Shown here piece after piece: positions 3,969 to 5,680 of a DNA stretch of 5,680 bases. The stretch spans positions 1 through 5,680 of the forward strand of contig JAJYEK010000214.1 of the NCBI GenBank assembly GCA_021785795.1, in the 5' to 3' direction. The position numbers and the translations under genes were made by a program. The stretch comes from Pseudomonadota bacterium (GTDB taxonomy: Bacteria; Pseudomonadota; Gammaproteobacteria; Acidiferrobacterales; UBA6901). The notes below the pieces were generated by a model. It had not been told where the DNA came from and did no database searches. It was given only the letters and a program-made list of their open reading frames with translations. The stretch's first letter is position 1. Each line of letters starts with the position of its first letter.

Positions 3969-4044
3969 GGGCCGTTAGCTCAGCCGGTAGAGCAGCTGGC
4001 TTTTAACCAGTTGGTCGACAGTTCGAATCTGTCACGGCCCACCA
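3969..4044 (+). tRNA. tRNA-Lys(UUU)
   Basis: A 76-nt gene with encoded CCA. The acceptor stem GGGCCGT pairs with ACGGCCC. The D-arm is AGCTCAGCCGGTAGAGCA. The anticodon loop is CTTTTAA, giving anticodon UUU. The variable segment is TGGTC, and the T-arm is ACAGTTCGAATCTGT. The sequence closely resembles E. coli tRNA-Lys from memory. Its 3' half is the attachment site of the integrated elements to the right, and the tRNA itself is intact. Confidence 0.97.
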
Positions 4045-4049
4045 ATTAA
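4000..4049 (+). repeat. Attachment-site direct repeat, copy 1 (within tRNA-Lys)
   Basis: Fifty bases identical to 5263-5312, running from the first base of the anticodon loop through the encoded CCA and five bases past it (ATTAA). Identity ends at both edges (ggC versus gcC on the left, TCAAC versus CTCAG on the right). A repeat that starts at the anticodon loop and rebuilds the tRNA 3' half is the classic product of tyrosine-recombinase integration into a tRNA gene. Confidence 0.93.
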
Positions 4050-4265
4050 TCAACGACTTACAGCTCCTTCCCGTCCTTGCGGTTCGGGTCTTGTGCCCTG
4101 GATCAGGCGCGGGCGGCCAATCTTCTCCGCGTACGGTGCAAGATGCTCGGCCGAGAGATGCGTGTAGCGGCGCACCATCAGCTCCGTTTCCCAACCGCCC
4201 AGGCTCTTGCAATATATGCATCGGTGTTCCCGCCTGGGTGTGCCACGAGCCCACTTGTTCTGGGT
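4050..4265 (-). pseudogene. Tyrosine recombinase (integrase) C-terminal relic 1, frameshifted
   Basis: Read on the minus strand, three frames together give a typical integrase C-terminus. A WA (near 4253) is followed by SWHTQAGTPMHILQE and then LGGWETELMVRRYTHLSAEHL, and the stop TGA is at 4050-4052. The Trp of GGW and the nucleophilic Tyr of RRYTHL remain. Two frame breaks are visible: one base missing near 4248 (between WA and SWH) and one extra G at 4202-4203 (between LQE and LGGW). Upstream of about 4265 the expected HxLRH motif is decayed beyond recognition, so most of the gene is lost. The stop codon comes one base after the attachment repeat, as in the second relic. It cannot make a working recombinase. 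Confidence 0.8.
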
Positions 4266-4383: not shown

Positions 4384-4791
4384 CTATTCCCAGGGATTGG
4401 TGACGGGGACACCGAAGCGGCGGAAATCCGCCTCATTGCGGGTTGCCACGGTCAGACCGTGGACGTGGGCCGTGGCCGCGATAAGTCCATCGACCACAGG
4501 AAGGGATTGCTTGCTGGTTCCGCGACGCGTACCCCAGACAACTGCCACCGGCAGGTCCACGGCGAGCAGCCGGCCGGCGAACCGATCCGGAAGGGCGCGT
4601 CGCACCCACGTCAGGAGTTGGGTGCGTTTCTCGCCATCCGGCAGGGCTGCCACGCCTTCCTCGATTTCACCGATAGTGATGACGCAGAGATAGAGATCGG
4701 CTTCGCGCTGCGCATCGATCCAAGCTATTACCCGTGCTGCTGGCCTGGCTTTGACCAGCTCGGAGATGACGCAGGTGTCGAGCAGGAACAC
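4384..4791 (-). CDS. vapC: PIN-domain ribonuclease toxin, FitB/VapC-like
   Basis: A 135-residue PIN-domain protein, full length for the family. Acidic metal-binding residues are in the expected places: Asp5 in MFLLDTCVISE, Glu42 in ITIGEIEEGV, Asp101 in LPVVDGLIAATA and Asp122 in ATRNEADF. The C-terminus FGVPVTNPW also matches FitB-type members. Such toxins are Mg-dependent RNases that cut tRNA or rRNA and are held inactive by the paired antitoxin. The start is GTG at 4791, which places LLDT correctly. It begins one base after the antitoxin stop (TAG at 4793-4795), so the two are translationally coupled. The gene is transcribed toward the tRNA, convergent with it, and I see no terminator between. 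The RNA target cannot be predicted. Confidence 0.88.
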   Translation of the reverse strand: MFLLDTCVISELVKARPAARVIAWIDAQREADLYLCVITIGEIEEGVAALPDGEKRTQLLTWVRRALPDRFAGRLLAVDLPVAVVWGTRRGTSKQSLPVVDGLIAATAHVHGLTVATRNEADFRRFGVPVTNPWE

Positions 4792-4792
4792 G

Positions 4793-5047
4793 CTAGAGCC
4801 GTACGCGCGGGCGGCCGGTGTCCTTCACGCGGCGTACTTTGAGCCGCGTGCCGGCCAGCGGTGAGTGCCGGAAGAACTCGGTCAGGGTTTCGGGCGGCTG
4901 CGACAGCTCGCGGAATTTTTCCACCGAGACCACCACGGCGGCCGGCGCGCCATGCACGGTGATGGTTTGCGGGCCGTGGCGGCGCGCCTCGGCCACCACG
5001 CGCGAAAGCTGGTTTTTTGCGTCCTGGAGTTGCCACCGCTTACCCAT
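4793..5047 (-). CDS. Phd/YefM-family antitoxin
   Basis: 84 residues. The N-terminal half (WQLQDAKNQLSRVVAEAR, then GPQTITVHGAPAAVVVS) is the Phd/YefM DNA-binding dimer fold. The C-terminal half (TLTEFFRHSPLAG, then a basic tail) matches the segment that wraps the toxin. It neutralises the downstream PIN toxin and, by family analogy, represses its own operon. I start at ATG 5047, which has GAGG six bases upstream. A TTG two codons earlier (5053) is less likely. Antitoxin before toxin is the usual order, with one base between the genes. The next upstream element is a promoter with a palindromic operator. Confidence 0.88.
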   Translation of the reverse strand: MGKRWQLQDAKNQLSRVVAEARRHGPQTITVHGAPAAVVVSVEKFRELSQPPETLTEFFRHSPLAGTRLKVRRVKDTGRPRVRL

Positions 5048-5064
5048 AGTCAACCTCGATAATT

Positions 5065-5262: not shown

Positions 5263-5312
5263 CTTTTAACCAGTTGGTCGACAGTTCGAATCTGTCACGG
5301 CCCACCAATTAA
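5263..5312 (+). repeat. Attachment-site direct repeat, copy 2 (tRNA-Lys 3'-half fragment)
   Basis: Exact 50-bp copy of 4000-4049. It has the anticodon loop, the T-arm and the 3' acceptor strand with CCA, but the preceding bases (GACGGTTCGGC) do not supply the 5' half, so it is not a tRNA gene. It marks the right boundary of the mini-island and probably the left boundary of the next one, because another integrase 3' end follows at once. Confidence 0.93.
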
Positions 5313-5313
5313 C

Positions 5314-5538
5314 TCAGGTAGTTACCGCATCATCAGCAGAGTGCTGGTCAGGCGACTTTGCCAATTTTTTGCCAGCAACCACCCGAAGTCGCGGGAGATT
5401 GTCGGCAAACTCAGCCAGGTGGCTGGCACCGAGATGGGTGTATCGCAGGACCATCTCCAGCGTCTTCCATCCGCCGAGCTGCTGCAGGACAGGCAAAGGG
5501 GTTCCGGACTGCACGTGCCATGAAACCCACGTGTGGCG
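5314..5538 (-). pseudogene. Tyrosine recombinase (integrase) C-terminal relic 2, truncated by a palindromic element
   Basis: An uninterrupted minus-strand frame of 74 codons plus stop TGA (5314-5316), starting inside the catalytic RHTW motif. It reads RHTWVSWHVQSGTPLPVLQQ, then GGWKTLEMVLRYTHLG. The second catalytic Arg, the Trp of GGW and the nucleophilic Tyr are present. The preceding residues, expected as H-D-L, are replaced by palindrome sequence, and a stop (TAG) appears 11 codons further upstream. The C-terminal tail (about 40 residues, ending AVTT) differs from that of relic 1, so these are two separate integrases. An internal GTG could start a short peptide, but it would have no function as a recombinase. 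The rest of the gene may lie beyond the inserted element, outside the window. Confidence 0.82.
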
Positions 5539-5566
5539 GCTATTCCGATATCGGAATAGCCGCCAC
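5533..5566. repeat. Perfect 34-bp palindrome
   Basis: Two 17-base arms with no spacer: GTGGCGGCTATTCCGAT (5533-5549) and its exact complement (5550-5566). It begins exactly on the CGC CAC (Arg-His) codons of integrase relic 2. No U-run follows in either direction, so a terminator is unlikely. It contains two facing copies of CTATTCCGA separated by TA. Confidence 0.95.
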
Positions 5567-5578
5567 TATGCCGCATTG

Positions 5579-5651
5579 GAAACTATGCCGAGTTGAGTTT
5601 CCTGCGCCTGTTGTTTGACGGGTTTGCGTTGTTCTGACTCGGCATAGTTTC
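5579..5651. repeat. 15-bp inverted repeat within a five-copy CTATNCCG(A/C) motif cluster
   Basis: GAAACTATGCCGAGT (5579-5593) is exactly complementary to ACTCGGCATAGTTTC (5637-5651), 43 bp apart. The core CTATGCCGA recurs nearby: CTATGCCGC at 5566-5574 in direct orientation, and CTATTCCGA at 5540-5548 and, inverted, at 5551-5559 in the palindrome. So five related 9-mers lie within 108 bp, three forward and two inverted. This suggests a multi-site protein-binding region. Confidence 0.85.
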
Positions 5652-5674
5652 ATGTCTTCTCCCTTAACGATAAA

Positions 5675-5680
5675 AAGGAG
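5675..5680 (+). promoter_or_regulatory. Shine-Dalgarno sequence of a gene beginning beyond the window
   Basis: AAGGAG occupies the last six bases and is preceded by an A-rich stretch (GATAAA). An initiation codon would be expected within about ten bases past the end. This would be the first gene of the element that starts at the palindrome. Confidence 0.5.

Follow-up and report, generated by a model that had tools for sequence, protein, structure and literature searches.

The window analysed here, a stretch of 5,680 nucleotides (G000:C4:68962-74641), holds near its right end the relic of a tyrosine-recombinase gene that runs directly into a perfect palindrome, GTGGCGGCTATTCCGAT joined to ATCGGAATAGCCGCCAC, whose arms of 17+17 bp are 100% complementary (Table 1). 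The relic is readable on the minus strand from its stop codon (5314-5316) to RHTW; this 74-residue piece matches Pfam Phage_integrase (8.7e-07), and the 3' part of the gene is 79% identical at the nucleotide level, over 278 bp, to an intact integrase of 377 amino acids (L132). A sequence-only reading had described the relic as correct up to RHTW and then passing into the palindrome, with CGC CAC as the end bases. Rereading the palindrome and the Pfam match bear this out, the codons CGC CAC being both the palindrome's six outermost bases and the RH codons of the relic. As DNA, the segment 5533-5651 folds with a z of -9.74; an RNA feature at the palindrome was considered and rejected, Rfam at the gathering threshold giving 0 matches in 5300-5680. 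At 5663-5680 the window (ccttaacgataaaaaggag) and the G000 contig (ccttatcgataacaaggag) differ at 2 positions, with an overall identity of 99%.

Next to the relic lies an exact copy of the 3' end of the tRNA-Lys gene found at 3969-4044. Exact duplication of a tRNA 3' end is the usual sign of an element integrated into a tRNA gene, and the copy is presumably the attachment-site repeat of the element whose integrase became the target described below. Two integrase remnants, that of Table 1 and another at about 4003-4254 (minus strand, by look), adjoin the two tRNA-Lys repeats, and the interval between the repeats contains, also by look, a PIN-type toxin/antitoxin pair on the minus strand (4384-4791 and 4793-5053).

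Table 1. Features around the junction, in window coordinates unless a contig is named.
Feature	Position	Strand	Basis or remark
tRNA-Lys 3'-end copy	5263-5312	+	50-bp direct repeat of 4000-4049, 100%
Target tyrosine-recombinase gene, 3' part (RHTWVSWHVQSGTPLPVLQQLGGWKTLEMVLRYTHL...), beginning with the Arg-His codons	5317-5538	-	translation, Pfam, homologue match
Arg-His codons CGC CAC, the 6-bp overlap common to both target halves	5533-5538	-	flank ends and BLAST overlap
P-end of RIT1, 34-bp perfect palindrome	5533-5566		layout spacer (8), core (18), spacer (8), terminal repeat, also in relatives
P-end outer spacer	5533-5540		part of 34-bp palindrome
P-end 18-bp core, TAT(12)ATA	5541-5558		part of 34-bp palindrome
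P-end inner spacer	5559-5566		part of 34-bp palindrome
RIT1 terminal inverted repeat	5567-5651		inverted copy of 92 bp (5560-5651) at G000:C4:81402-81493, 99%
Inverted repeat within the terminal repeat, arms 5579-5593 and 5637-5651, GAAACTATGCCGAGT	5579-5651		further copy of the TATGCCG arm
AAGGAG, likely ritA ribosome-binding site (putative function)	5675-5680	+	ritA ATG at G000:C4:74647

Beyond the window lies a trio of recombinase genes, with the ritA ATG at the sixth base past the window end, and about 7 kb from the palindrome the element, RIT1, ends in the inverted copy of its terminal repeat. The flank adjoining this far end (G000:C4:81487 onwards, minus strand) reads ...AGITNFRWHDLRH and closes with the codons CAT GAC CTC CGC CAC (HDLRH), so that the last six bases of the far flank and the first six of the near flank are identical, CGCCAC. 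The N-terminal part of the integrase, which the sequence-only reading had predicted would end in H-D-L beside a matching end sequence, is therefore in place, adjoining the inverted terminal repeat. It is open for 39 codons only, and that piece alone gives no Pfam match, so decay has affected the target gene on its upstream side as well.

Both RIT1 and a second element nested in it, RIT2, consist of three adjacent tyrosine-recombinase genes A-B-C in the same direction with short overlaps, as is typical of RIT elements, and the terminal inverted repeat with an overlapping palindrome expected of elements of ~3.5 kb is present as well (92-bp repeat, 99%; 34-bp palindromes). RIT1 (ritA-ritB-ritC) measures ~3.41 kb without the nested element, and RIT2 ~3.57 kb; the overlaps in RIT1 lie at L004 2986-2989 (A/B) and 7497-7500 (B/C), ritB being split by RIT2, and those of RIT2 are 4 bp each. 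All the Rit proteins match PF00589 except the short 3' piece of ritB, and R263, K287, H358, R361, H384 and Y393 (RitA numbering), which we take to be the catalytic residues, are invariant in the five unbroken ones. The RitA of RIT1 has SAM-like matches at 30-90 and 124-202, whereas that of RIT2, despite 47% identity to it over 390 residues, has them only within 122-206; two sequential core-binding domains are described for RitA in PMC8138268. No cargo genes were seen in RIT1 or RIT2. The same genome encodes three further RitC homologues, on contigs C46 (L110), C21 (L111) and C36 (L112), of which L111 lies in an IS66 gene by its motif.

RIT2 sits inside the ritB of RIT1 on the opposite strand, with a 34-bp palindrome of its own (L004 7278-7311). 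The interrupted ritB is cut at HDFRH (CGC CAT) and resumes ~3.6 kb later at CGC CAT CGG TTT (RHRFARET...). The corresponding proteins of the two elements are 47-60% identical; on one contig, then, two different RIT elements interrupt the same two codons of two different genes.

Homologous recombinases without an insertion were found in two genomes of the same genus (G400, G401) and one of the same order (G414). Two of these sequences (L133, L134) match both flanks of RIT1, at 77-81% over 47 bp and 68% over ~280 bp, and the 6 bp that the two matches have in common are precisely the Arg-His codons; L132-L134 are homologues of the target rather than the same allele minus its insert. A near-identical empty site was sought on plasmids without success, the candidates being L119 for L071 (a 93% IS66 copy, comparable on one side only) and L120 (a 75% integrase), with short matches for L055 and nothing for L041. 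In another genome (L131; G399:C29, 1-700) a core identical to that of RIT1 joins, at the RH codons and with no terminal repeat between, the 3' halves of two recombinase genes, one 92% identical over 326 bp to the relic integrase and the other a ritB of another type (39-44% identity). This looks like a recombination product at Arg-His codons, as would be expected if the recombinases act on such codons wherever they meet them.

Relatives were gathered by RitC similarity, with the RitC of RIT1 and eight relatives (alignment A1) as query. A search of 84,980 species genomes supplied the best 80 loci of at least 585 confirmed stretches, to which were added 3 viral contigs and 9 stretches from the element's own genome and a 398-genome draw; with the starting cases, RIT1 and RIT2, this makes 94 elements, the 92 surveyed ones having been picked without regard to target. 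Of these 94, 78 were readable and 16 had no usable flank. Readable ends share one plan, a bare T-end and a palindromic P-end. The T-end runs from the target's 5' half through an 8-bp spacer to the terminal repeat (TATGCCG... type), and the P-end from the terminal repeat through a spacer, an 18-bp core TAT(12)ATA or near variant and a second spacer to the target's 3' half, the 34-bp palindrome being spacer-core-spacer. At least 7 of 9 base pairs are symmetric in 55 of 71 cores, and a core agrees with the terminal repeat of its own element at 6.75 of 9 bases, where shuffling gives 5.58 on average and 6.12 at most (n=65). In the 25 Arg-His elements with one T-end and one P-end the palindrome is always at the target's 3' half (with variant residues in L021, L025 and L066). 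The gene next to it is ritA in 16 of them and ritC in the other 9. Elements with a pair of like ends, both T or both P, also occur, as inversion between two inserted copies would produce; L005, L019 and L136 are among those with two bare ends and L035, L051, L067 and L072 among those with two palindromes.

A target class was given where at least one end shows the motif. The Arg-His codons of tyrosine recombinases are the target in 42 of the 78 readable elements (40 of 76 without RIT1 and RIT2), including the variant rows L021 (SLRQ), L025 (SH), L045 (RR) and L066 (LRS), and in 22 of the 42 the two halves share a phase and each stay open for 30 aa or more. A further 29 interrupt other conserved motifs: recombinase GHSxxD (5 elements) and the TKFG/K hairpin, TKxG (1); IS66 transposase TAKLN (12) and GRN (2); the IS21 IstA DWG motif (2; a sub-cutoff NCBIfam IS21 match, 6.6e-25, for L073, and likeness for L067); the IstB Walker A motif (1); an IS110 N-terminal motif (2; weak, with a sub-cutoff Pfam match, 0.0024, for L037 and likeness for L028); DUF932 (1); DUF3489 (2); and an MCNLY motif (1, L115). 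The last is probably SRAP; its 43-residue piece had no Pfam or NCBIfam match. We likewise assume that L057 and the plasmid copy L142 lie in DUF932 and L075 in IstB, both families being present among the pieces searched, and that the IS66, IstA, IstB and IS110 motifs carry catalytic meaning. Seven of the 78 (L033, L044, L059, L083, L085, L087, L110) have no recognised motif as target. The table of classes includes hand work: a regular expression gave 47 Arg-His rows, from which L044, L083, L087, L110 and L114 were removed by inspection; 14 rows of other classes were set by eye and the unassigned set was named by hand; two ends (L009, L050) were retyped; and 15 were dropped as unreliable (L017 left, L022 both, L037 left, L039 right, L047 left, L049 right, L059 left, L063 right, L065 right, L081 right, L086 right, L112 right, L113 left, L117 right). 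Pfam, run on 149 of 163 flank translations (the other 14 set aside by hand), which by design include many alternative and antisense frames, found Phage_integrase in 58 and IS66 in 10. Over-long matches at six loci, suspected of being mini-elements inside RitC, were rejected as such, the surplus being the 3' half of the neighbouring interrupted recombinase.

A later set of 12 named plasmid copies, out of 60 listed of 376 records and including those of pNGR234a, pHG1 and EbN1 plasmid 2, was read by eye under the same end rules. It gave 8 Arg-His targets, 1 recombinase TKF hairpin, 2 IS66 and 1 DUF932, with the motif at one end at least in 12 of 12 and a fit at 18 of 24 ends; of the other six, 3 could not be located (L139, L142 and L144 left) and 3 lie off the motifs of the first set (L138, L145 and L146 left). 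The Cupriavidus necator pENH92 copy (L145) has two bare ends, flanked by ..KKGIVESGVKYVN, presumably IS21 IstA-like, and by a tyrosine recombinase, ..VVVRETKFKN.

The agreement at the Arg-His codons was compared with that at shifted junctions. Of the 47 T-ends whose flank reaches 450 bp or more, 30 receive an Arg-His call (28 of 47 without L083 and L087, which are not counted as recombinases), against 33 of 18,800 shifted junctions (0.18%); under a looser call the P-ends give 30 of 53 (28 without L044 and L114) against 420 of 21,200. On a tree of RitC with 77 of the 78 readable rows (without L087), target class changes 16 times if the unassigned rows count as their own class, with 0 of 200 shufflings (mean 33.4) giving so few, and without those rows the 10 changes for 11 classes are the minimum possible. 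The 12 IS66 TAKLN elements form one clade (SH-aLRT 99) and the Arg-His class spans most of the tree. Judged from the sequences, then, target class follows the RitC tree, which is a quick tree without bootstrap and one in which near-copies add to the clustering. The idea, raised in the sequence-only reading, that the element recognises a conserved sequence in recombinase genes has held up, many unrelated copies interrupting HxLRH of different recombinases; copies at unrelated targets without a shared flank, which would have spoken against it, did not turn up for most elements of this type. The shared flank is only ~6 bp long, and other RIT clades sit at other motifs, mostly of mobile-element enzymes.

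How the overlap is used can be read from the spacers of 42 elements of all classes with one T-end and one P-end (a different set from the 42 Arg-His elements). At spacer position 1 the outer P spacer equals the inner spacer in 40 of 42 and the T-end does so in 5; at position 8 it is the T-end that matches the inner spacer in 40 of 42, the outer P spacer doing so in 16. Since the agreements at the two positions reverse, exchange is confined to positions 2-7, six bases. Within the Arg-His class (n=25) position 4 is G in all and positions 6-7 are CA in nearly all, while position 5, the Arg wobble base, varies. The two junction spacers often differ inside the 6 bp, so the homology at the overlap must be loose. 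The target arms outside the overlap showed no likeness to the element's arms, and no arm sequences common to the Arg-His targets were found beyond what the HxxRH...A codons would give.

Taken together, these observations make it very probable that the palindrome is the left end of RIT1, integrated site-specifically at the catalytic Arg-His codons of the integrase beside tRNA-Lys; a route by way of a circle is proposed here. An excised circle would join both terminal repeats through spacer-core-spacer, giving an almost symmetric attP in which the two crossover spacers are inverted, and the Rit recombinases would exchange strands over the 6 bp at positions 2-7 of the 8-bp spacer, against a target overlap that would read CGNCA or AGGCA, that is, the Arg-His codons of HxLRH. 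Whichever way round the element goes in, the T-end should come to lie at the target's 5' half and the P-end at the 3' half; both orientations could be explained by the symmetric circle junction, because either inverted spacer can recombine. We infer the roles of the circle, of excision and of the three recombinases. Active-site codons would suit as a landing site since few other DNA words are retained by all recombinases, and other RIT clades would carry other overlaps and use other conserved motifs. The elements are probably mobile, as indicated indirectly by the copies in unrelated targets, the uninterrupted homologues and the opposite orientations.

That the junction is a coincidence, or a deletion scar from which the N-terminal part was lost, might be suspected from the short open frame of the relic's upstream half and from the several relics in the region, but this reading deserves hardly any weight and is already refuted by the far flank and the independent copies. 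The upstream half ends exactly in CAT GAC CTC CGC CAC beside the inverted terminal repeat; the 6-bp overlap on uninterrupted homologues, together with the presence of the N-terminal part, rules out the scar that the sequence-only reading had named as an alternative; and a chance junction is excluded because RIT2 is nested at Arg-His codons and 42 of the 78 readable elements, RIT1 and RIT2 included, sit at such codons. It is also highly improbable that the shared target was inherited from one ancestral insertion copied along with its flanks. L006, L007, L018 and L027 do share a target type and close flanks, RitC is identical in L006 and L007 and again in L013, L014 and L016, and the 34 interrupted 3' halves, which are short and conserved, fall into 29 clusters at 70% identity and only 9 at 50%. 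The 31 interrupted 5' halves, however, form 27 clusters at 70% (22 at 50%), therefore representing many separate insertions, and the genes hit are as varied as HDLRH integrases, ritB and RitC-like genes. In Burkholderia sp. OK233 the same type of target gene is hit in two places (L006, L007) by elements in opposite orientations, which are either separate insertions or a flippable element. Survivor bias, by which insertion is fairly free and copies persist in dispensable genes, would agree with most assigned targets being mobile-element enzymes that the host can spare, but we regard it as improbable, as it can neither put 42 elements on the same two codons nor account for halves in phase and for an exchange bracketed to 6 bp. 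Such a bias may nevertheless have a part in which conserved genes appear interrupted.

The element may also move by another route. In a copy-out scheme of the kind proposed for SEs and Tn554, a 6-bp footprint would be moved between sites, in place of the cut-and-paste circle. The same 6-bp length is described for SEs and Tn554 in PMC10214605, the inner and outer spacers often differ as though one had retained an earlier target, and a fully palindromic circle junction would probably make a poor replicating molecule. Yet no footprint rule fits all 42 compared elements: the junctions agree with each other against the inner spacer in the Arg codon in L024, L026, L077 and L116, but not in L031, L042 and L043, and RIT elements lack the Srap/GinD protein of SEs and GInts. 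Because overlap matching is loose and inner spacers differ, copy-out keeps an appreciable share of the probability, though we think it unlikely.

Site-specific integration of RIT1 at the Arg-His codons may be one case of something wider. Eight of the 31 5' halves, among them the gene that RIT2 itself interrupts, are at least 38% identical to Rit proteins encoded on this contig, which suggests that RITs fairly often occupy one another. It is conceivable, with the chances slightly against it, that the RIT family in its entirety homes on catalytic motifs, with a clade-specific 6-bp overlap spelling part of an active-site motif that belongs to a mobile-element enzyme (recombinase Arg-His, GHSxxD and Lys hairpin; IS66; IS21 IstA and IstB; IS110) and new targets arising as the overlap changes. 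Since the active site is lost on insertion, RITs might then act as parasites or disablers of rival mobile elements, each other included. An overlap made of active-site codons would make RIT integration directly testable and insertions findable by sequence alone; it would be a mobile element's exploitation of the one sequence its competitors cannot easily change, and it may explain part of the broken integrase genes on plasmids and islands.

Among other systems, inteins and homing-endonuclease introns also occupy the most conserved, often active-site, codons, so that a site exists wherever the gene does, but they splice out and keep the gene working, whereas RIT elements interrupt it. By Pfam the Rit proteins have recombinase domains only, with no splicing or endonuclease domain, and the likeness is one of target choice alone. 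Integron integrases, with their off-target and attC recombination, are likewise arm-tolerant tyrosine recombinases with a short conserved crossover and a possibly folded palindrome; unlike RIT elements, they collect cassettes at attI and have neither a trio nor a coding motif as target. Tn554 uses radC as its target and has an additional protein, TnpC, absent from RIT; set against the TnpA-TnpB-TnpC, cargo and radC of that transposon, the elements described here have three tyrosine recombinases and an integrase target. Tn554-related elements, SEs and GInts also bring several tyrosine recombinases together and are site-specific (PMC10214605, PMC5385486), and the 6-bp footprint of SEs and Tn554 is a further likeness. 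SEs and GInts, however, have the additional protein Srap/GinD and are far larger than RIT, with medians of 15.7 and 34.9 kb (PMC10214605). The pair Tfp/GinC and Srap/GinD beside two integrases is absent here, the three Rit frames filling the elements with no room for it, and RIT1 RitA scores 20 bits with the GmtY model, whose cut-off is 340.

Catalogues of RIT elements go back to 2009, and Van Houdt 2009 and Ricker 2013 are reportedly among the earlier papers; the elements, their palindromes and a few targets are thus already known. In the open-licence PMC literature searched, no description of an active-site target rule for RIT was found, and nothing on RIT came up under insertions into integrases or conserved motifs. 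PMC10214605 marks RIT target specificity as 'NT', not formally tested, in its Table 1, and says that to its authors' knowledge RIT transposition has never been reproduced. PMC3414803 describes three tyrosine-recombinase genes overlapping by 4-8 bp in ~3.5 kb, ends formed by a '28-9 bp inverted repeat and overlapping palindromic sequence', which it says 'do not fit well' the conventional core and arm sites, and cases in which radC of a Tn4371-like ICE or a Tn6049-like transposase is interrupted; PMC2864759 names radC and IS66 tnpA. Trio, size, repeat with overlapping palindrome and mobile-element targets are the same in RIT1. Where these descriptions give targets as single cases, the comparison made here points to a rule, a 6-bp overlap on active-site codons, with the palindrome as part of the attachment site.
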